Shown here piece by piece: positions 4,011-19,508 of a stretch of 35,285 nucleotides of DNA. The notes beneath the pieces were generated by a model, which saw only the letters and a list, made by a program, of their open reading frames with translations, did no database searches and had not been told where the DNA came from. The first letter of the stretch is position 1. Each line of letters opens with the position of its first letter. Made by a program: the position numbers and the translations under genes. This DNA is from Calditrichota bacterium. GTDB taxonomy: Bacteria; Calditrichota; Calditrichia; RBG-13-44-9. Location of the stretch: positions 1-35,285 of the forward strand of contig JAFGSO010000172.1 in assembly GCA_016934605.1 (NCBI GenBank). The letters run 5' to 3'.

Positions 4011-6851
4011 ATGAAGCAATTTTCACTGATTATTTTTCTGATTTTATCCCTTTCCATTTTCTTGCCGGAAAAATCTGAGTCACAATGGTATTATTACGGA
4101 CGGAATAAAGTTCAATACACAGATTTCGAATGGCATGTTCTTAAAACAGATCATTTTGATATTTACTATTACCCTGAGATGGCAGAGCTCGCGGAAAAAG
4201 GAGCCGCATTCGCAGAGGAGAGTTATCGCTATCTGGAAAACAAATTTAATTTCACAATTAACAGGCGGATCCCGCTCATCTTCTACAGTTCCCATCTCCA
4301 TTTTCAGCAAACCAATATAACCCCTTACTTTGTGCCGGAAGGAGTCGGCGGATTTTTTGAATTTCTAAAGGGTCGGGTTGTTATACCGAGCGATGGAAAC
4401 ATCAACCAGTTCCGTAAAGTCATTTTCCATGAACTGGTGCACGTTTTCATGCATAGTAAGATTTATTTCGAAAACAAAGAACATTCTCGATTTGAGGGTA
4501 CTTATCCCCCGCTCTGGTATGTGGAGGGACTTGCAGAATACTGGTCCTCTGAATGGGATGCCCAGGCGGAAATGGTGATAAGGGATGCTGTTTTGAACAA
4601 TTATATTGTTCCGCTTTCCAATATGTATCAGATAAACGGAACCTTTATGATGTACAAGGAAGGTCAGGCTATTCTCACCTACATAGCCAACACCTACGGC
4701 GAAGAAAAAATTCTTCAATTGATGGAAGAGATCTGGAAATATGGAAAATTCTCAGATGTTTTTCAGGAGGTTGTTGGAAAAACCTATGAACAGTTCGATC
4801 AGGAATGGCTGTATTATCTGAAAAAAAAGTACTATCCCCTTATGGAAGACAATGATTTTTCAAAAATGATAACGTATTCGGTTGTCACACGGGGATATAA
4901 CTTTAAACCGGCTTATTATAAAGATGTCAACGATGAGGAATATGTTGTGTTTTTCGGAAACCGGGGCGGTTACTCAAATATCTATATTAAAGATCTACGT
5001 CCTTTCCGGCTGGAACAGAAAGAGAAAGCGGAAATTCTGGTTAAGGGAGAAAGAACTCCGGATTTTGAATCACTCCATCTTTTTTCCAGCAAAATTGATG
5101 TTGATAAAGCAGGGAATCTTACATTTTCCTCCAAGAGTGGTGAGAATGACGCCCTCTACATTTACAGCATACCGGAGCGTCGGGTGCTAAAAAAACATCA
5201 ATGGTCGCAGATTGTCGCAATTTCCTCTCCATCATTCTCTCCGGACGGACATAAAGTCGTCTTTGCAGGAGTGGATTTCAGCGGAAAACAGGATCTTTAT
5301 ATTCTGGATCGGAATGAAAATTATTTAATCCGTTTAACCGATGATTTTTATGAAGATAAAGCTCCTTCTTTCTCTCCGGACGGACGAAAAATCGTTTTTT
5401 CTTCCGATAGAACCATGCATGGGAAAGACTGGTGTTACAACCTCTTTATCTACGATCTGGATACAGACCTGATACATTATGTAACATACGGCCGATTTCA
5501 GGACGAGACACCGGTCTGGAGTCCTGATGGTCAATATATCGCATTCACATCCAACAGGGATACTTCTTTGAATTTGTGGATAGCAGATTTATCTGACATA
5601 CAGGACTGGGAAATCGGATTTTATGATCGGGTAAAGCTAAAACAGATTTCCCGGTTTATTAATGCTGCTTTCGATCCGGAATGGACAGACGATAACCGTT
5701 TACTTTTTACTGTTTATGAGAACAATCGTTTTGAGATCCGAATGATGGACAAAATTAAAGAAAAAAGTGACTCCACTCAGTCCATTGTCAAGAATGAAAA
5801 AATGTTCGGACATCGCCAGTGGAAATATAATCGTGTTCCCGGAAGCAAAATACAATCGAAACTACGCTATCAGAAAAAATATGATCTTGATATTGCTCAG
5901 GCCCAGGTCAGCCAGGATCCGTTCTGGGGGACCACCGGTGGAGCGGTTTTTGCATTCACGGATATCCTGGGAAATGATCAATATTATTTCATGCTGTACA
6001 ACAATGCTCAGAGTCGAGGTGATTTTTTCAAGAGTTTTAACGGAGCAGTTACCAAAGTTTCTCTGGAAAACCGCCTTAATCACGCCTATGGCCTTTTCCG
6101 CTTTTCAGGAAGATATTTTAATTATAAAGACGGCTATTTCTATGAAGATAGGGTTGGAGGATTCTTTACCCTCAGCTATCCATTCTCACAATATAACCGA
6201 ATGGAATTTAATACCAACCTGAGTTATTCGGATAAGGATGTTATTGGACTGGACAGACGACATGCCATTATCACTTCCAATTCAATATCTTTTGTATCGG
6301 ATAATTCCATATGGTGGTATACCGGTCCCATGGAAGGTCATCGATATAATATTTCTGTGGGCAATACCTACGATTTGAGATGGTCGAATGTCAACTATTA
6401 CACATTCAGAGCGGATCTCAGACAGTATACCCGTCTCGCACCCCGGCTGAGTCATGCCATCCGTGTACTCCTGCTATATAATGAAGGGAAAGATTCCCGC
6501 TGGTACTATCTTGGGGGAAGCTGGGATCTGCGGGGATACCGGCAATGGTCTATCCGCGGGGAAAAAATCTTTTTTTTATCCAATGAACTAAGATTCCCAT
6601 TTATCGATTACATCGGTATTAAATTTCCATTCCTGGGTCTTGGTTTTCGGGCCATTCATGGAGCACTTTTCCTCGATGCAGGGAATGCATGGAATGACGA
6701 GTGGAATGGTTTGCTGGGAAGTACCGGTTTTGGTTTTCGCATGAATTTCGGAGGATTTCTGGTACTCAGACTGGACATTGGTAAAAAAACTGATTTCAGA
6801 GAATTTACTTCCGATTGGTTTACTCAATTCTTTTTTGGATGGGATTTCTGA
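4011..6851 (+). CDS. Peptidase MA-like gluzincin / TolB-WD40-like propeller / Omp85-like outer-membrane barrel fusion
   Basis: 946 aa ORF with signal peptide; HELVH zinc motif with downstream VEGLAEYW; repeated SPSFSPDGHKVVFAG / APSFSPDGRKIVFSSD / TPVWSPDGQYIAFTSN blades; C-terminal GGSWDLRGYRQW...FLDAGNAWNDEW...LDIGKKTDF and terminal Phe. Confidence 0.85.
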   Translation: MKQFSLIIFLILSLSIFLPEKSESQWYYYGRNKVQYTDFEWHVLKTDHFDIYYYPEMAELAEKGAAFAEESYRYLENKFNFTINRRIPLIFYSSHLHFQQTNITPYFVPEGVGGFFEFLKGRVVIPSDGNINQFRKVIFHELVHVFMHSKIYFENKEHSRFEGTYPPLWYVEGLAEYWSSEWDAQAEMVIRDAVLNNYIVPLSNMYQINGTFMMYKEGQAILTYIANTYGEEKILQLMEEIWKYGKFSDVFQEVVGKTYEQFDQEWLYYLKKKYYPLMEDNDFSKMITYSVVTRGYNFKPAYYKDVNDEEYVVFFGNRGGYSNIYIKDLRPFRLEQKEKAEILVKGERTPDFESLHLFSSKIDVDKAGNLTFSSKSGENDALYIYSIPERRVLKKHQWSQIVAISSPSFSPDGHKVVFAGVDFSGKQDLYILDRNENYLIRLTDDFYEDKAPSFSPDGRKIVFSSDRTMHGKDWCYNLFIYDLDTDLIHYVTYGRFQDETPVWSPDGQYIAFTSNRDTSLNLWIADLSDIQDWEIGFYDRVKLKQISRFINAAFDPEWTDDNRLLFTVYENNRFEIRMMDKIKEKSDSTQSIVKNEKMFGHRQWKYNRVPGSKIQSKLRYQKKYDLDIAQAQVSQDPFWGTTGGAVFAFTDILGNDQYYFMLYNNAQSRGDFFKSFNGAVTKVSLENRLNHAYGLFRFSGRYFNYKDGYFYEDRVGGFFTLSYPFSQYNRMEFNTNLSYSDKDVIGLDRRHAIITSNSISFVSDNSIWWYTGPMEGHRYNISVGNTYDLRWSNVNYYTFRADLRQYTRLAPRLSHAIRVLLLYNEGKDSRWYYLGGSWDLRGYRQWSIRGEKIFFLSNELRFPFIDYIGIKFPFLGLGFRAIHGALFLDAGNAWNDEWNGLLGSTGFGFRMNFGGFLVLRLDIGKKTDFREFTSDWFTQFFFGWDF

Positions 6852-8017
6852 TGAAACTGGCAATTCGGATGAATAAATACAAAATATTTCTACTGGTTTT
6901 ATCATTATCGACGGGATGTATTTTGTCCTGCAGCGGACTTATCAAATTAAAGGTCTCTGAAGAGGAACTGAGCTCAGACCAGGAAAAATGGACAACTGTA
7001 TTCTCATCCAATAACCGGCATAATTCGGTGGATTCAGACCTCATTCCCCCGTACCGGATCGCCTGGAGGAAAGGATACAAGTCTGTTATAACAGATCAAC
7101 CCCTGGCTGTGGCAGACCATCTGATATTTACCACCCGGAATGGAAACCTGGCTTTCCTGAATATATCCAAAGGTCAGATGCTTGGCGATGGACGGATTGC
7201 CCCTGGATTCGACCATGCCCCCGTCATTGAAAATTCCACTTTATTCTACGGCGCCAGTCTGGGAGAAAAAACTCTGGTAGCTTTGAATATGTTGAACCTG
7301 AAAAAAATCTGGGAAACCAAACTGGGACATGTTTATACCTCTCCTGTGATATGGAAGGAAAATATATACGTCGGGACCAATAATAATAAAATAGCAGCAG
7401 TGAATAAGAACAATGGTGAAAAAATCTGGCAATTCGATGCTGGCGCTTCTCCGGTTGGAATACCTGCAGAAAATGAGGGAAGATTATTTTTTTCTGATAT
7501 TCAGGGAAATCTGTATTGTCTGGATGCGGAAAGTGGAAAGGAAATCTGGAGAAAAACTCTTGAAACGAATGTATACAGCGGACCTGTAATTGCTGACGGG
7601 CGCTTATTCATCGGAACAACTGCCGGAACATTCTTCGCATTTTCTGCTGACTCTGGTAAGTTTTTATGGAGGACGCAAACTGAGGGTGCCATCTTTGGAC
7701 ATGCCTCTTACAGAGACGGTGTGGTTTACTTTGGAAATAATGCTCATGCAGTTCATGCCCTAAGGGCAGAAGATGGTAGTAAATTATGGAGTTTCAAAAC
7801 AGGCGGTATTGTAAATACAACACCTCTGGCCGGCAGAGAATATATATATGTTCTCTCCTGGGATAAAAAACTGTATATAATTTCCAGATTGGATGGTGAG
7901 GAGGTTTATCATATGGAATTTAATAAACCATTCAAGTCATCGCCGTTGATATATCGGAATAAATTGATTATACACACCGCAAATGATGATATCATTTGTT
8001 TGGAAAGCAGGGAATAG
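6851..8017 (+). CDS. PQQ-like beta-propeller lipoprotein, BamB-like
   Basis: Track ORF 6815-8017; probable start ATG 6851 overlaps the upstream stop (TGATG), alternative ATG 6869. Signal peptide with lipobox-like ILSC|SG; repeats GEKIWQFDAG, GKEIWRKTLE, GKFLWRTQTEG, GSKLWSFKTGG. Confidence 0.82.
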   Translation: MKLAIRMNKYKIFLLVLSLSTGCILSCSGLIKLKVSEEELSSDQEKWTTVFSSNNRHNSVDSDLIPPYRIAWRKGYKSVITDQPLAVADHLIFTTRNGNLAFLNISKGQMLGDGRIAPGFDHAPVIENSTLFYGASLGEKTLVALNMLNLKKIWETKLGHVYTSPVIWKENIYVGTNNNKIAAVNKNNGEKIWQFDAGASPVGIPAENEGRLFFSDIQGNLYCLDAESGKEIWRKTLETNVYSGPVIADGRLFIGTTAGTFFAFSADSGKFLWRTQTEGAIFGHASYRDGVVYFGNNAHAVHALRAEDGSKLWSFKTGGIVNTTPLAGREYIYVLSWDKKLYIISRLDGEEVYHMEFNKPFKSSPLIYRNKLIIHTANDDIICLESRE

Positions 8018-8024
8018 CAGAGGA

Positions 8025-8795
8025 ATGAAAATGAATAAATTAATCCTCATAATTTTGTTATTATCCTCTCTGGCCTGGGCCGGGGGACAAAAAATTGCCC
8101 ATTTGACCATATACTCTTCATCCGACGATATTGAAATCAGATTGAATTCGGCATTGCTTGGAAAAACGCCCATCCAAAAGCTCAGTCTGCAGGAAGGTCA
8201 TTATATCATAGAAGCTGTCAACAAAAATTCTGGTGTCTGGAGTGCTGAAAATGTTACCCGTGATATATTTCTTCAGAAAGGACAGGATACTACCATATAT
8301 ATTCATTTTCCTAAAATGGTGAAAATAAATTCCGTGCCCTATCACGCCAAACTGACACTGGATGACCAGTTCATCGGTCTCACACCGGCAACACTTGAAT
8401 ATGAAACCTACCGGGGGAAAAAATTCCTGCTCGAGAAATCCGGATATAAACCGGCAACTTTTGTTTTGGAGAATGACAAACCGCAGTTTTATACACTTGA
8501 ACCACTGGTTTTGAACAGGAATGAGGAAGAGAAACATTCATTCAGTCATTCACTTTTCCAATCGAATCTCAAAACAAAATTTTTATTCCTGACAGGAACC
8601 GTGGTAACGCACTGGCTTGCTTTTTATCTGAAAAATGAAGCGGATGATAATTTTGAGAAGTACTCTGTTACCGGCAATCCTGTTTTGATGAAAAAATACT
8701 GGGATAATACGCAAAAATATGATAGATGGTCCGATATTTCTCTGGGTGTATCTTATGCCTTGCTCGGTGGGTTAATATATACTGTAATCAAATAA
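8025..8795 (+). CDS. PEGA-domain protein with signal peptide and C-terminal TM segments
   Basis: Track ORF 7983-8795; likely start ATG 8025 (MKMNKLILIILLLSSLAWAGG) preceded by AGAGGA. PEGA-like segments IEIRLNSALLGKTPIQKLSLQEGHYIIEAVN and AKLTLDDQFIGLTPATLEYETYRGKKFLLEKSGYKPATF. Confidence 0.72.
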   Translation: MKMNKLILIILLLSSLAWAGGQKIAHLTIYSSSDDIEIRLNSALLGKTPIQKLSLQEGHYIIEAVNKNSGVWSAENVTRDIFLQKGQDTTIYIHFPKMVKINSVPYHAKLTLDDQFIGLTPATLEYETYRGKKFLLEKSGYKPATFVLENDKPQFYTLEPLVLNRNEEEKHSFSHSLFQSNLKTKFLFLTGTVVTHWLAFYLKNEADDNFEKYSVTGNPVLMKKYWDNTQKYDRWSDISLGVSYALLGGLIYTVIK

Positions 8796-9074: not shown

Positions 9075-9103
9075 TTGACAAGGTTAGGATTTTTATGTAT
9101 TTT
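9075..9103 (+). promoter_or_regulatory. Putative sigma70-like promoter
   Basis: TTGACA at 9075-9080, 17-nt spacer, TATTTT at 9098-9103 preceded by TG, directly upstream of the candidate small RNA. Confidence 0.45.
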
Positions 9104-9105
9104 TT

Positions 9106-9177
9106 GATCGACCTGAAAAGGTCAAAAACCTCCCTCCCAACTCCGCAGGGGACACGCACCGTGTCCCCTGTTTTTTT
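9106..9177 (+). ncRNA. Candidate small RNA, about 70 nt, unknown family
   Basis: Promoter-like boxes upstream; hairpin GACCT-GAAA-AGGTC (9110-9123); unpaired-looking C-rich CCTCCCTCCC (9129-9138); perfect stem-loop and T7 tract at 3' end. No ORF explains it. Confidence 0.5.
9146..9177 (+). terminator. Rho-independent terminator
   Basis: CAGGGGACACG (9146-9156) / CAC loop / CGTGTCCCCTG (9160-9170): 11-bp perfect stem followed by TTTTTTT (9171-9177). Confidence 0.88.
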
Positions 9178-9260
9178 ATTAAAGATGAATTAATGATCAA
9201 CTATTATTATTTTAGGGCGTTAGATTATGTAATATTGAATATTGATTTGGAGAATATTTT

Positions 9261-10667
9261 ATGAAACACTTACATCCGGTTATCTTATTCATATTAGTGA
9301 GCATAACCACCAATCAAGCACAAACAGGATTTATCCCTTTATCAATCGATCATGCGATTTTCAAAGCTGAAAAAAATAAAGTGTATCTGGAGATCTATCT
9401 CTCCTTCAACGAATCTCACTTGCAATATATTGATCAGGACCAACAGTATATGGCTGAGTACATGGCAACGGCACAGATACTACAGGGAGACAGCTTGCTC
9501 TTTCAGGATGTCGATAAACGGAAAAGTCAGCTGGATTCAATGAACGAAATTTCCGCCTACAGGAAATTTTTAAATATATTTGGATTCATTATTGATGACG
9601 GTAGCTATTCGGCAAAAATTACCGTTCAGGATCTGCATTCTCCCCGGAAAGGCGAGTATATATTCGATTTTGAAGCCCGACCATTTCCAGAACAGGAACT
9701 GATGATTAGTGATATTGAATTGTGCAGCCATATCAGCGCCGATACCGCAAAAGGTGATTTTCAGAAAAATTCTTTTCTGGTCATTCCCAACCCGGGAAGT
9801 ATTTTTAGTGTAAATATACCCGTGGTCTATTACTATGCAGAGCTTTATAATCTGAAAATGACAACCGGAGATCCCGGCCAATATAAATTAAGGACATCCA
9901 TCAGAGATTTAGAGGGTAATTCTGTTAAAGAATATCCCGAAAAAATCATAAAGAAACCCGGAGAAACCGCGGTTCTTGTTGGTGGTCATAATATTGTGAC
10001 CTTACTGTCTTCCACTTATTTTTTCAATATCGAAATTGAAGATTTGGACTCCCGGGAAATTACACGAACCTCAAAACGCTTCACTTTTTTTAAGCCGGAA
10101 ACTGAAGAAGGTCGTCCTGGTGATTCACTTTATGCAGCCGATAAAGAAACGGTTTCTATCGCGGAATATCTGCAGTACGGTGAAGAAGAACTTCTCACCC
10201 AATTTGAGAAGACCAGATATATCTCCACAAAAAAAGAACGGGATATTTTTAAGAATCTAAACCTTGACGGAAAAAGAGTATTTTTAGCCAGATTCTGGAA
10301 AAAATTTGATCCAACCCCCGCAACCGAGGTCAATGAATTTAAACAAAATTATACCGAGTTGATTAACTTCGCCGAAACCAATTTCTCCTCGATGAATAAA
10401 AAAGGCTGGGAAACAGACCGGGGACGGGTACTTCTTTCTTATGGCAGTCCTGATGAAATTGAACGGTTCTATATGGCTATTGATATGAAACCACATGAAA
10501 TATGGCATTATCATGAGTTGGAAGGCGGAGTGCTATTTGTTTTTGCCGATTTATCCGGATTTGGAGACTTTGAGCTGCTTCATTCAACCTACAGCAAAGA
10601 GCTATACCAGCCTGATTGGGAAAGATTGGTTAGAAGAACGCAGGGTGGATTTGATTATGAGCGATAA
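9261..10667 (+). CDS. GWxTD domain-containing exported protein
   Basis: 468 aa ORF with signal peptide; C-terminal KKGWETDRGRVLLSYGSPDEIERF matches the GWxTD signature. Confidence 0.85.
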   Translation: MKHLHPVILFILVSITTNQAQTGFIPLSIDHAIFKAEKNKVYLEIYLSFNESHLQYIDQDQQYMAEYMATAQILQGDSLLFQDVDKRKSQLDSMNEISAYRKFLNIFGFIIDDGSYSAKITVQDLHSPRKGEYIFDFEARPFPEQELMISDIELCSHISADTAKGDFQKNSFLVIPNPGSIFSVNIPVVYYYAELYNLKMTTGDPGQYKLRTSIRDLEGNSVKEYPEKIIKKPGETAVLVGGHNIVTLLSSTYFFNIEIEDLDSREITRTSKRFTFFKPETEEGRPGDSLYAADKETVSIAEYLQYGEEELLTQFEKTRYISTKKERDIFKNLNLDGKRVFLARFWKKFDPTPATEVNEFKQNYTELINFAETNFSSMNKKGWETDRGRVLLSYGSPDEIERFYMAIDMKPHEIWHYHELEGGVLFVFADLSGFGDFELLHSTYSKELYQPDWERLVRRTQGGFDYER

Positions 10668-13354: not shown

Positions 13355-16300
13355 TTATCGCAACAGGACTAACTTTCTGGATTTGACAAAATCCCCGGCT
13401 GTGAGCCGAATAATATAAATACCGCTGGCCACAGGCACACCGTCATCGTTGCGTCCATGCCACTCTACCCGTTGCCCTCCGGGATCGGCATACCTATCGA
13501 CCAGTGTCCGGACCTTCTGCCCCAGAATATTATATATTTCCAGCTTTACAAGTCCTCCTGCGGATAAACGATATGGGATTGTCGTTATCATATTAAATGG
13601 ATTCGGAAAATTGGGATAAAGCTCATATGTCAGCCCATCAAAAAAAACCGGACCCGTTGATTCAATCAGCAGGATATCTCCTGCATAATTTGGTTTGGTT
13701 GTAATAATCCGGAAGACTGTGCCTTCTTCCGGCATCACAGCATTCAGGTTTGCCGGGAAATCTATGCTATAAACATTGCCGCCATCCCAGTTAACCAGCA
13801 CCGTCCTTGCCAGAACTTCCGGACTATCATAATCGTATGCTCCAGATCTTGCATCTGTAACATACTGATCATAACCGGCTGTCCCTGGTTCGGTATTTTG
13901 GGGATTCATCCAGTAAACCCAGTCCATATAAGGATCGTCCTCACCGTCAGAAACAATATGATCAGCAGGATTAATATTATACAATGTATCACCCGATTGT
14001 GCATTTCCAATATCATTGAAAATCCATGGTATCATCTTAAAATCATCTCCAGGATCTTCCGGGGTATTGATACCGATATTCCATATTTCAAATGGAACAT
14101 GTGCAAACAGATCACTATCAAAAACCCAGGCGGCAAGACTACCGGTGGAATTAAACCTCATTTCAAAATCATATGGAATAATTCTGTCAGAATTATCATT
14201 CCGCACTACCCGTTCTTTGAAATAGGAATATGTCCCATCATTGAAAAAGGTCATCCCGGTATGAAATCCCCAGACAGCATTTGAGTTAACCTGCTGTACG
14301 CCTGGAGTCGGATGGTCAGTCCCATCCGGATAACGTTCGTTATACAAGAGAGGAAATCCATTCCGATTAAATGCAAAGCAACCAATATCCGGGGGAACAA
14401 TCGGTCCGGCGGCGTTTGCTGTCACCAGAAACTGTTTAAAATCTTTTTGGAGTCCTTTTACGATAAATTCTATCCCATCAATCACCGGATGAGGATAATG
14501 GAGTTCATTGCTGGGAACTCCATCAACATATTTGTCTGTCCCGGTTGTGACATCAAAAAGACGCCATAGTAATTCTCCACTCTCCGAATTTTCATAAAAA
14601 TGAAGCTGGTAAATATGACGATTCAGCAATGAGGGATCGGCAACCACCGGAAAAATATTTTCTGCTGTTCCAGTTACCGACTGCACCTGCAATGTGTCTC
14701 TCCAGATGGAGGGGGATGCCCATTTGATGAGAGGATGCACATAAGATTGGATTATTGTATGGCTATCAAAAGCGAGGAAAATATAAAATGTAAGAAAATC
14801 TCCGGATTCCGGACCATAGAGTATAAGAAAGAGTGAATCGTTTCCAACCTTGCTTCCGGGAGAAATTATTTGGTGACTGCTACCACCATAATTCTCATTC
14901 GAAAAGAATATTGATGAAATAGAATTCAGCATGTCTGTGTTTTTTACCGAAAATCCGAGATACACTTTCTCATGATAATTGATCCCCCTGTCCTGCCGGC
15001 CGTTTTCCCAGATTACCTGCCAATCTGTCAATTCCGGGGTAGGCCGCAAAGTAAGATATTTTTCAATTGCGGGAATAGTATCTACTCCTGACATGGTTGT
15101 AACAAAAACATCTGCCTGATAGGGATATTTTCGGTTATTAACTGTTGTGCTGTTTCCCCAGATCCCGTCTCCGGCCAGACTGTCCTGATGCTGACCGTCA
15201 TCGTAAAGCTCTACATTAAAGGACGGTTCATTTCCCTCGGAGGGATAAAAAGTCAATCGACATCGGCTGGCTGGTAGAAAATCCTGCAGGTCAATCCGGG
15301 AATTTATTTTAGTTTCAGTATTAGACGGTTGCACTATGGATAAAGAGGTTTGTGGACTAATCAGTTTTCCCGTTTTAAACTTACGGCGGACATCACGCAC
15401 ATGATTTTGCATTTGTTCCACAGAGCGCAGACGGTTGTCTCCCAGCCCACCAACCGTGGCAATAATCACCTCCTGGGTATCTCCCGGTGCCATATCAAAT
15501 GGGCCACTGCAAAATGCGAATCTACGGGCACCGGTCCAAAAATTAGCACCCTGACCATCAATATCACCTGTCCCGGTTACAGGATCTCCGTTCAGGGGAA
15601 ATTTAGTAATCTGCCCGGTATTTCGATGGGTAAACGGTACCTGTTTCATACTGTCGGGAATGGGAAGGAATACATTCAGTGCATTATACCACTGGAGTGT
15701 TCCTGTGTATTCCTGTAAAACCGGGTCGCGCCATTCAGAATTACCGACAGCACCATACCAGAACGAAGTCATCGGACGGTTCGCGTAGTCCGGCACCGGC
15801 TTAAAATTAAAAAGTGCGGTATCTCCTGGCGACGGGTAGCGTGGACCCTGCAGTAAAACATAAGCGAACGCCGGAGGGGCGATTCCGAAGGGATCGAACT
15901 TTTCGTCAGAAGCGGTTCCATTATATACATATCCCATGTTCAGAACGGAGTCACAGCCACACAAGTCGTTGCTAAAATCTCCCAGATCACAATCACTCCA
16001 CTGACTCACAAACATGGAATCGATAGAGAAACCGGATTTATTGATCAGACGGTAGCGGCGAAAAACGGTTTCGCCCAGAGCTCCTTCCACATCGTAGGCC
16101 GATATGGTCACCTGTAATTCCAGTCCGATGGGATTAGATCCGTATAGAAAAGCTACTCTGGCCGGATCCAGATCATTACAGACGAACCAGATCACCTGGT
16201 CAGCTCCCTGGAGTCCCGGCTCCTCTCCCAGATGAGGTTCATACATTCCATTCATATTGTCATCATAAAACGGGGCACCGTATTCAACCGGCCACTCCTC

Positions 16301-16849
16301 CCAGTCCCTGGCATAGTTGGCCCGGATGCTGTCAATATGTGCCACACTTACGGTCGACAGCTCGATCCCGAAAAATTCGGCGGCATCCTGAAGCAGTACA
16401 CTTGCAGAAACCGTCCTGTAATCCCGTCTGATCCGGTAAATCCGAACATCCGGATCCTGCGGACTCTGGGCATTGCCGGGACTGATGATTCGTCCGGAAA
16501 CGGTACCGGTATTATAAGTCTGTCCCCCGACGCGGAGTGTCGGGTATGACCCGTCATGAATGTATCCTCCCCAGATCAGTCCATCCTGAAACACAACATT
16601 CCCGGTACCACGGGGATACCTGATTCCCGCATTTCCAGTGAGCGGATTTATGCCTGAGGTACCATCCCAGCAAATCCAGCCTCCTATTTTATTGGCATTG
16701 TAAAGCGTATACTTAATCTTGACCGGAGAAAATTCTTCACCATTGGAAATCTTTTCTGTCAGCTCTGGCGGGATCTCTGCACGGATGAAACTGATTAAGA
16801 ATAAAAAAACTAAAACGAGAAAAGCTAAATGGAATCTCATCCTTTTCAT
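13355..16849 (-). CDS. Large secreted protein with T9SS type A-like C-terminal sorting domain
   Basis: 1164 aa; signal peptide; C-terminus LYPNFPNPFNMITTIPYRLSAGGLVKLEIYNILGQKVRTLVDRY...ASGIYIIRLTAGDFVKSRKLVLLR. Confidence 0.85.
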   Translation of the reverse strand: MKRMRFHLAFLVLVFLFLISFIRAEIPPELTEKISNGEEFSPVKIKYTLYNANKIGGWICWDGTSGINPLTGNAGIRYPRGTGNVVFQDGLIWGGYIHDGSYPTLRVGGQTYNTGTVSGRIISPGNAQSPQDPDVRIYRIRRDYRTVSASVLLQDAAEFFGIELSTVSVAHIDSIRANYARDWEEWPVEYGAPFYDDNMNGMYEPHLGEEPGLQGADQVIWFVCNDLDPARVAFLYGSNPIGLELQVTISAYDVEGALGETVFRRYRLINKSGFSIDSMFVSQWSDCDLGDFSNDLCGCDSVLNMGYVYNGTASDEKFDPFGIAPPAFAYVLLQGPRYPSPGDTALFNFKPVPDYANRPMTSFWYGAVGNSEWRDPVLQEYTGTLQWYNALNVFLPIPDSMKQVPFTHRNTGQITKFPLNGDPVTGTGDIDGQGANFWTGARRFAFCSGPFDMAPGDTQEVIIATVGGLGDNRLRSVEQMQNHVRDVRRKFKTGKLISPQTSLSIVQPSNTETKINSRIDLQDFLPASRCRLTFYPSEGNEPSFNVELYDDGQHQDSLAGDGIWGNSTTVNNRKYPYQADVFVTTMSGVDTIPAIEKYLTLRPTPELTDWQVIWENGRQDRGINYHEKVYLGFSVKNTDMLNSISSIFFSNENYGGSSHQIISPGSKVGNDSLFLILYGPESGDFLTFYIFLAFDSHTIIQSYVHPLIKWASPSIWRDTLQVQSVTGTAENIFPVVADPSLLNRHIYQLHFYENSESGELLWRLFDVTTGTDKYVDGVPSNELHYPHPVIDGIEFIVKGLQKDFKQFLVTANAAGPIVPPDIGCFAFNRNGFPLLYNERYPDGTDHPTPGVQQVNSNAVWGFHTGMTFFNDGTYSYFKERVVRNDNSDRIIPYDFEMRFNSTGSLAAWVFDSDLFAHVPFEIWNIGINTPEDPGDDFKMIPWIFNDIGNAQSGDTLYNINPADHIVSDGEDDPYMDWVYWMNPQNTEPGTAGYDQYVTDARSGAYDYDSPEVLARTVLVNWDGGNVYSIDFPANLNAVMPEEGTVFRIITTKPNYAGDILLIESTGPVFFDGLTYELYPNFPNPFNMITTIPYRLSAGGLVKLEIYNILGQKVRTLVDRYADPGGQRVEWHGRNDDGVPVASGIYIIRLTAGDFVKSRKLVLLR

Positions 16850-17477: not shown

Positions 17478-19508
17478 TCATCGAACCAGCAGCATCTTCC
17501 TGGACAACTTTCGATTCTCAAAATGAATTTGATATATGTAAATTCCTGAAGAAACCTGCTTGTCGTGATCATCACACCCATCCCAGCGAATTTCCTCGCC
17601 CCTGGTAAAGTATCCGTCTATGAGTGTCCTGATCCTACTTCCGGTAATATCAAAAATTTCAAGCTTTACTTTGCCGCTGGTATCAATCGTAAACGGAATC
17701 ATAGTGGTTCCATTGAAAGGATTCGGATAATTCTGAGCCAGAGTGAAATCCCGGATTACCTCATTACCTGGCTCCAAAGTGGCTATCGGAACCTCCCTGC
17801 TCATCTTTAATATTCTCAAATCCGGATCAAACTGGACAACCAGTGGAGAACCGCTGATCGGGATATGAAAATCCTGAACTTCCAGTGAGTCCCAGATCAT
17901 CAGTGTATCCCGGTTAATATGTGTGTCTATCACCCTCACTTCTATAGGCATTTTATAGAGATGACTGTAACCATCGAGTTTCTGCTTCTGTGCAATCCAA
18001 AAATGCAGGTAATCCTGTCCATTCTGCTGATAATGTGTATAGCCCCAATCATAAACCGGATAATAAGGTTCATAAATCCACTGCTGAAAAAACCAGTCAA
18101 GATCCATTTCACTTTTCATTTCACAAAAATCTCGAAACTCTTCAGTGGTTGCATCATCGTAAGCAAATGAGGGATCATTCGGATAATCATGCATGATTTC
18201 AAAGAAAACGGAATCTCCGACAACGTAACGCAACATATGCAGTACCCACATGCCTTTGGTATAAATAGTTCTTGAGAAAAGGTTATTCGGATTACTGGTA
18301 TCATAACGGTAAACAGCCGATCTGAAAATTGTTGAAAAATTATAGGGTTCCAGTGTACTGTTAACATATGTCCGGAATGAACTTTTATCATAATATGCTT
18401 CAATCCATAAAGCCTCACTGTAAGTCGCAAATCCCTCATTCAGCCAGATGTGATGCCAGTCCCGGCAGGTGACCAGATCCCCAAACCACTGATGAGCCAG
18501 CTCATGTGCATAAATAGTTTCCCAGCTGTCAGACACTGTTCCAATACTTGTACAGGTCTGATGCTCCATACCACCGCCCCATCCGAAAAGAGCATGACCA
18601 TATTTTTCTTCAATAAAAGGATATAAACCATACAATCGACTGAATACTTCCAGCATATCCGGTAATTTTTCAAATGCAGATCGGGCAGCTGTTAGCTGAT
18701 ACGGGTAAACATAATACTCAATCGGCATGAATTCACCCGGGGCAAATTGGAAAGAATCCGAAAAAGTTGTATAATTGGCTATGGCCAGAGATACCAGATA
18801 AGTGGTAATCGGATATTTTTCTTTCCAGATAAAAGTTGTGGTATTATTCGGATTGGGAATCTGGCCCTGAAGCAATCCGTTGGATGCGACGGTATATCCC
18901 GTTGGCACCGTTACTGCAATTTTCACGGAATCCATCTTGTCCGACGGATCATCTTTGCATGGCCACCAGGTCTGTGCCGCATACGGCTCACTCAGAGTAT
19001 ACACACCGTTACCAAACCAGAATCCCGCAAGTCCTTCCGGACGCGGAATACCGGAATAATTAACTGTTACGGTAAATGTTTCCCCTGCATCATAAACAGT
19101 GTCCAGAACAACTGCCAGCACCCAGTTGGAATGAGTGTAACTATTTATATTCCCCGACACCCACATATCCGACCAGTAAGGGGGATAATCTTCCCGTGAA
19201 TCAAAATTCAGATTTATGCGATCCAAGCCGTTTACATTGCTTCGGAACAGTCCCGTGACGGTACCTTCAAGGTTCTGTGGATCCATGCTGATTCGAAAAT
19301 CAAGATCATAATAAAGTTGATCATAGTCAGCAGAATCCGGCATACTGATTTTTGAGAATACTTTCTTATACAAAGTGAAATTGTTCTTTTTAATATCGGG
19401 TAATTTTTTACTGGCTTCTATCAATTCCTCCAGCCGATCTGGAGTAATCTGCTGTGAAAGTCCATTTGACACCATCAGCATTAGAATTAGAAATTTCCAC
19501 AATCTCAT
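17478..19508 (-). CDS. M1 family (gluzincin) metallopeptidase with T9SS-type C-terminal sorting domain
   Basis: 676 aa; HELAHQWFGDLVTCRDWHHIWLNEGFATYSEALW (HExxH-x18-E), WWPCKDDPSDKMDSVKIAVTVP, GGGMEHQT; C-terminus LAQNYPNPFNGTTMIPFTI...SSGIYIYQIHFENRKLSRKMLLVR. Confidence 0.92.
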   Translation of the reverse strand: MRLWKFLILMLMVSNGLSQQITPDRLEELIEASKKLPDIKKNNFTLYKKVFSKISMPDSADYDQLYYDLDFRISMDPQNLEGTVTGLFRSNVNGLDRINLNFDSREDYPPYWSDMWVSGNINSYTHSNWVLAVVLDTVYDAGETFTVTVNYSGIPRPEGLAGFWFGNGVYTLSEPYAAQTWWPCKDDPSDKMDSVKIAVTVPTGYTVASNGLLQGQIPNPNNTTTFIWKEKYPITTYLVSLAIANYTTFSDSFQFAPGEFMPIEYYVYPYQLTAARSAFEKLPDMLEVFSRLYGLYPFIEEKYGHALFGWGGGMEHQTCTSIGTVSDSWETIYAHELAHQWFGDLVTCRDWHHIWLNEGFATYSEALWIEAYYDKSSFRTYVNSTLEPYNFSTIFRSAVYRYDTSNPNNLFSRTIYTKGMWVLHMLRYVVGDSVFFEIMHDYPNDPSFAYDDATTEEFRDFCEMKSEMDLDWFFQQWIYEPYYPVYDWGYTHYQQNGQDYLHFWIAQKQKLDGYSHLYKMPIEVRVIDTHINRDTLMIWDSLEVQDFHIPISGSPLVVQFDPDLRILKMSREVPIATLEPGNEVIRDFTLAQNYPNPFNGTTMIPFTIDTSGKVKLEIFDITGSRIRTLIDGYFTRGEEIRWDGCDDHDKQVSSGIYIYQIHFENRKLSRKMLLVR

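Follow-up and report, generated by a model that had tools for sequence, protein, structure and literature searches.

A three-gene operon of a Calditrichota bacterium combines a POTRA-less Omp85 barrel, fused to a predicted peptidase and a propeller, with a BamB-like lipoprotein and a PEGA protein, and its gene order is conserved across several phylum- and class-level groups. The operon may encode a dedicated module of the cell envelope. The window analysed, 35,285 nucleotides long, corresponds to a single contig of a draft genome (G000) of 3.27 Mb that is 84% complete and consists of 555 contigs.

Gene organisation

The fusion protein gene (946 aa) lies at 4011..6851, the lipoprotein gene (388 aa) at 6851..8017, and the PEGA protein gene (256 aa) at 8025..8795, all on the plus strand. 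The first was delimited from the open reading frame list, domain searches, and a structural model, the second from domain searches, an alignment, and a model, and the third from a profile search and hydropathy. The domain content given in the initial annotation, namely a protease with an Omp85 barrel, a BamB-like lipoprotein, and a PEGA protein, was confirmed by the domain searches. Its reading of the junctions was also correct. The TGATG overlap at 6849..6853 (+) is exact, with the barrel gene stop TGA at 6849-6851 and the lipoprotein ATG at 6851-6853. The gap before the PEGA gene is 7 nt, from the lipoprotein stop TAG at 8015-8017 to the ATG at 8025. The lipoprotein reading frame of the window was called as 6815/6851-8017, and a second in-frame start, the ATG at 6839 (MGFLM...), would give a 13-nt overlap with the barrel gene. 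An overlap of 13 nt is the most frequent barrel/lipoprotein junction in relatives (31/75 loci), which suggests that the two genes are translationally coupled.

The fusion protein

The fusion protein comprises a signal peptide (aa 1-24), a gluzincin-type peptidase MA domain (aa ~25-288), a TolB-like propeller (aa ~289-580), a POTRA-less linker (aa 581-640), and an Omp85 barrel (aa ~641-946). Its match to Peptidase_MA_2 (PF13485) scores 35.4 bits against a cut-off of 32.4. An alignment of 47 homologues locates the zinc-binding motif HELVH at aa 140-144 (4428..4442, +) and the EGLAE segment, which holds the candidate third zinc ligand, at aa 172-176 (4524..4538, +). The two histidines and the glutamate of the HExxH motif, and both glutamates of EGLAE, are invariant in 47/47 aligned orthologues and paralogues. 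By family score, HExxH, and downstream Glu the domain is a gluzincin-type peptidase with predicted activity; conserved residues alone are no proof of that activity. The peptidase is the most constrained domain of the fusion: homologues share on average 67% identity with the window protein in this domain, against 60% in the barrel and 49% in the propeller.

In the AlphaFold model of the fusion protein (pLDDT 83, pTM 0.81), a helical peptidase is followed by a propeller and, after a short linker, by a barrel of ~16 strands. The propeller consists of PD40/TolB repeats according to the domain search. Foldseek matches it to TolB and the barrel to TamA/BamA, with a TMt of 0.69 to the TamA barrel 8us4. 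The Omp85 family PF01103 is found at 6072-6785 with 36.5 bits (cut-off 24) in the genome search and is unlisted in the whole-protein hmmscan. By PF01103 and Foldseek together, the barrel is that of the Omp85 superfamily. It lacks POTRA domains: PF07244 has no match on the window contig and does match other Omp85 proteins of the same genome, and the model has only the short linker at aa 581-640.

The LRGY sequence at aa 840-843 (6528..6539, +) occupies the position of the loop-6 motif of Omp85 proteins. Its RG is retained in most fusion homologues of the alignment, and the barrel keeps ELRFP as well. RG is otherwise strongly retained in Omp85 proteins. Within one family of the class (L055, L057, L062, L065, L066, and relatives), many proteins have LRLY at this position, and the remaining barrel is conserved in them.

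A second type of peptidase MA-propeller-Omp85 paralogue, of ~1000 aa and with a conserved HExxH, is widespread in the class. These longer paralogues occur on contigs C500, C214, and C270 of the source genome and at loci L083-L091, L094, and L095. They have no lipoprotein or PEGA neighbours; a lipoprotein gene follows in 0/9 cases with room downstream.

The initial annotation had set the module apart from canonical Bam, and a separate canonical BamA of 803 aa with several POTRA domains is indeed present on contig C90 of the same genome. This rules out the fusion protein as the genome's only BamA.

The propeller lipoprotein

The lipoprotein matches PQQ_2 with 139 bits in the profile search, and its AlphaFold model (pLDDT 94) is an 8-bladed PQQ-type propeller. 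The lipoprotein signal is borne out by the lipobox ILSC, whose Cys27 does not vary among 32 aligned homologues. A soluble PQQ dehydrogenase is ruled out by this cysteine, the length of 388 aa, and the bare propeller. Fold matches (TMq) are ~0.72 to BamB, 0.75 to designed propellers, 0.79 to YxaL, and 0.80 to tetrathionate hydrolase. PDB entries 4xga and 4pk1, which are BamA-BamB complexes or fusions, are among the matches listed. The score against the BamB equivalog TIGR03300 is 136 bits, below the cut-off of 285. The protein is BamB-like and not demonstrably BamB, and other PQQ propellers resemble it just as closely.

No separate bamB was found: the operon gene is the only PQQ_2 match in the source genome (84% complete) and in genome G022 (98% complete). 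Of the canonical bamA/bamB pair that the initial annotation proposed to look for elsewhere, bamA was thus found and bamB was not. BamB docks on POTRA3 of BamA. As the fusion has no POTRA, a contact of the BamA-BamB type is not available to the barrel and the lipoprotein. The lipoprotein might dock on the canonical BamA in trans.

The PEGA protein

The third protein matches PEGA (PF08308) with 38.2 bits against a cut-off of 20.8. It has a signal-like N-terminus, one or more PEGA regions, and a C-terminal segment with W..F..K..AD.....Y that is the best conserved part across the family. In two members of one family the profile search detects no PEGA part, and the C-terminal segment is conserved there. 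The C-terminal hydrophobic stretches at aa ~186-202 and ~238-254 are both moderate. From hydropathy alone, the simplest reading is a putative inner-membrane hairpin.

Conservation of the operon

Relatives of the fusion number at least 485 in one scan of genome contigs. The best 80 of these belong to Calditrichota, KSB1, Ignavibacteria, Kryptonia, Rhodothermales, and unplaced Bacteroidetes. Loci were counted for 86 non-redundant orthologues of the fusion, each with at least 1 kb downstream, and their open reading frames were searched with profiles. A BamB-like gene directly follows the fusion gene in 75/86 loci. Among these 75, the PEGA gene comes after the lipoprotein gene in 62 of the 68 loci with room downstream. 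The synteny on which the initial annotation depended is thus conserved, and a chance adjacency of the three genes is ruled out by its recurrence in 75/86 loci. In profile searches the order is kept across Calditrichota, KSB1, Ignavibacteria, Kryptonia, and Rhodothermales for loci among the matches listed. A plasmid-borne module was also considered and rejected, with no full-length match to the fusion in a tblastn search against plasmids.

The fusion was matched in 47/61 genomes searched; paralogues account for some of the remoter matches. Nearly all genomes of its class have an orthologue with ~50-77% identity, and the flanks, when read, have the fusion, lipoprotein, and PEGA genes in the same order and on the same strand throughout the class. 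The lipoprotein falls to ~20% identity within the class, where the barrel protein is still at ~50% or more, and the gene order is kept.

Co-inheritance extends beyond adjacency. In seven Ignavibacteria-type genomes an unrelated gene adjoins the barrel gene, and a strong lipoprotein homologue is found elsewhere (225-322 bits). A PEGA homologue directly follows this unlinked lipoprotein gene in 7/7 of them, so barrel and pair are retained together even without linkage. Some genomes have the barrel without an adjacent lipoprotein-PEGA pair, and the barrel may therefore work alone, without the pair. The PEGA partner has no strong match in 20 distant genomes, the best being 48 bits and outside the conserved C-terminus. 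Propellers of the lipoprotein type are present in these 20 genomes at lower scores, and the lipoprotein profile alone is thus not diagnostic.

Neighbouring features of the window

A GWxTD-domain protein (9261-10667, +) is encoded after the operon. GWxTD and VanZ neighbours were rejected as operon members because they stand beside the trio in the closest relatives only.

A strong candidate for a small RNA of ~70 nt (9075-9180, +) is located in the spacer that separates the PEGA gene from the GWxTD gene. It has a promoter-like TTGACA-17-TATTTT, a 5' hairpin GACCT/AGGTC, and a C-rich unpaired stretch, CCTCCCTCCCAACTCC, which could pair with Shine-Dalgarno sequences. A strong terminator hairpin and a T run come after the C-rich stretch (fold z -6.3). 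No Rfam family reaches its threshold for this candidate. Similar sequences occur in 6/7 genomes searched, at one place each, the match in G003 being only 22 bases. The four other aligned copies lie beside the same operon in G001 and G002, and elsewhere in G005 and G006. The C-rich stretch is kept in 5/5 aligned copies, and the terminator stem is altered on both sides at two pairs.

Matches to the T9SS-type C-terminal sorting domain are found in proteins encoded at 13355-16849 (-), below the family cut-off, and 17478-19508 (-). One of the two has an M1 peptidase domain. These matches suggest type IX secretion in the source organism.

Relation to known systems

WD40-Omp85: This subfamily was defined by Heinz and Lithgow in 2014 as a propeller with a barrel and was likened to a BamA-BamB fusion (PMC4104836). 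One or more POTRA domains before the barrel are typical of the Omp85 superfamily, and the WD40-Omp85 and noNterm subfamilies lack them. The fusion fits WD40-Omp85 by architecture, with the same TolB-like WD40/PD40 propeller N-terminal to the barrel and no POTRA. The main text of the paper mentions neither a peptidase MA domain in this subfamily nor its gene neighbourhood. PF00149, which the same authors give for the Omp85-'Metallo' subfamily, is absent from the fusion, where the domain is PF13485.

BAM and BepA: The module and BAM (BamA with BamB) both have an Omp85 barrel and an 8-bladed propeller lipoprotein. In contrast to BAM, the module has no POTRA for BamB-type docking, and a protease and a second propeller are fused in. 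BepA of E. coli is an M48 zinc metallopeptidase that acts on proteins at the Omp85 complex BAM (PMC8423444). It is a separate periplasmic protein, whereas the peptidase of the fusion is a Peptidase_MA_2 domain joined to the barrel.

PlpD: This patatin-Omp85 protein and the fusion both carry an enzyme domain N-terminal to the Omp85 barrel, and in PlpD that domain is periplasmic (PMC11116518). PlpD has a lipase-type domain and POTRA, whereas the fusion has a peptidase, a propeller, operon partners, and no POTRA.

TolB: The TolB protein of Tol-Pal is the best fold match to the propeller of the fusion. The latter differs in being joined to a barrel and a peptidase, and its score of 102.9 bits is far under the cut-off of 343 for the TolB equivalog TIGR02800.

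On peptidase-Omp85 fusions, the WD40-Omp85 term, and PEGA/BamB operons, the literature searched, which included few subscription papers, yielded only the study by Heinz and Lithgow. The barrel-propeller architecture is already named; judging by the papers searched, the peptidase and the operon partners are new.

Possible role of the module

The POTRA-less barrel of WD40-Omp85 type would anchor the fusion in the outer membrane. Its peptidase and TolB-like propeller would face the periplasm, an orientation favoured by analogy with the periplasmic enzyme domain of PlpD. The lipoprotein propeller would sit on the inner leaflet of the outer membrane beside the barrel, and the PEGA protein would extend from the inner membrane via its C-terminal hydrophobic pair. 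The two propellers may bind clients or partners, and the three proteins would form a physical complex. At the barrel, the fusion would proteolytically mature or quality-control outer-membrane or exported proteins, by a logic like that of E. coli BepA at BAM, with the protease here part of an Omp85 protein. A dedicated envelope module of this kind, built on a periplasmic protease anchored in the outer membrane and assisted by two partners, is the reading preferred here and is plausible, if a little short of probable. The dedicated, Bam-like, protease-equipped complex suggested in the initial annotation survives in part. Its dedicated and proteolytic character agrees with the separate BamA, the synteny, the invariant cysteine, and the invariant protease motif. 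Its likeness to Bam is weakened by the absence of POTRA, the sub-threshold TIGR03300 score (136 < 285), and a fold no closer to BamB.

The lipoprotein could instead be the BamB of this lineage, bound to the POTRA domains of the canonical BamA, in an operon for general outer-membrane biogenesis with the fusion as a BAM accessory protease. No other PQQ_2 protein was detected in G000 or G022, the lipoprotein has the fold and lipobox of BamB, and a multi-POTRA BamA is present. However, gene order links it to the POTRA-less Omp85 and not to bamA, and neither the equivalog score nor the comparison with other PQQ propellers sets it apart as BamB. We consider this reading unlikely. The barrel might also serve only as an anchor for a Tol-Pal-like scaffold to the cell wall or inner membrane, the peptidase trimming a peptidoglycan-linked or lipoprotein partner in a process unrelated to barrel assembly. 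The propeller closest to TolB, the hydrophobic C-terminus of the PEGA partner, which suggests a trans-envelope link, and the lack of POTRA for handling unfolded barrels agree with such a scaffold, but the TolB score is far too low for an equivalog (103 against 343) and the barrel keeps the Omp85 features RG and ELRFP, which makes it quite improbable. Type Vd-like self-export, in which the barrel brings its own peptidase-propeller passenger to the surface and the other two genes aid secretion, was long believed of patatin-Omp85 proteins and is one of two topologies raised for enzyme-Omp85 fusions by Heinz and Lithgow (PMC4104836), but it is very doubtful given the proven periplasmic enzyme domain of PlpD (PMC11116518), a modelled barrel that resembles TamA/BamA, a passenger of ~550 folded residues, and partners that look periplasmic.

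The preferred reading of a dedicated protease module can be extended to a third Omp85-centred machine besides BAM and TAM. It would join a POTRA-less protease Omp85, a BamB-like lipoprotein, and a PEGA protein probably anchored in the inner membrane, span the envelope, be ancestral to Calditrichota, KSB1, and Ignavibacteria-type Bacteroidota, and serve the maturation or quality control of outer-membrane proteins. This larger proposal is speculative and on balance rather unlikely. In the literature searched, WD40-Omp85 proteins have been assigned no function since 2014; through the conserved operon they acquire named partners and a catalytic motif that can be tested.
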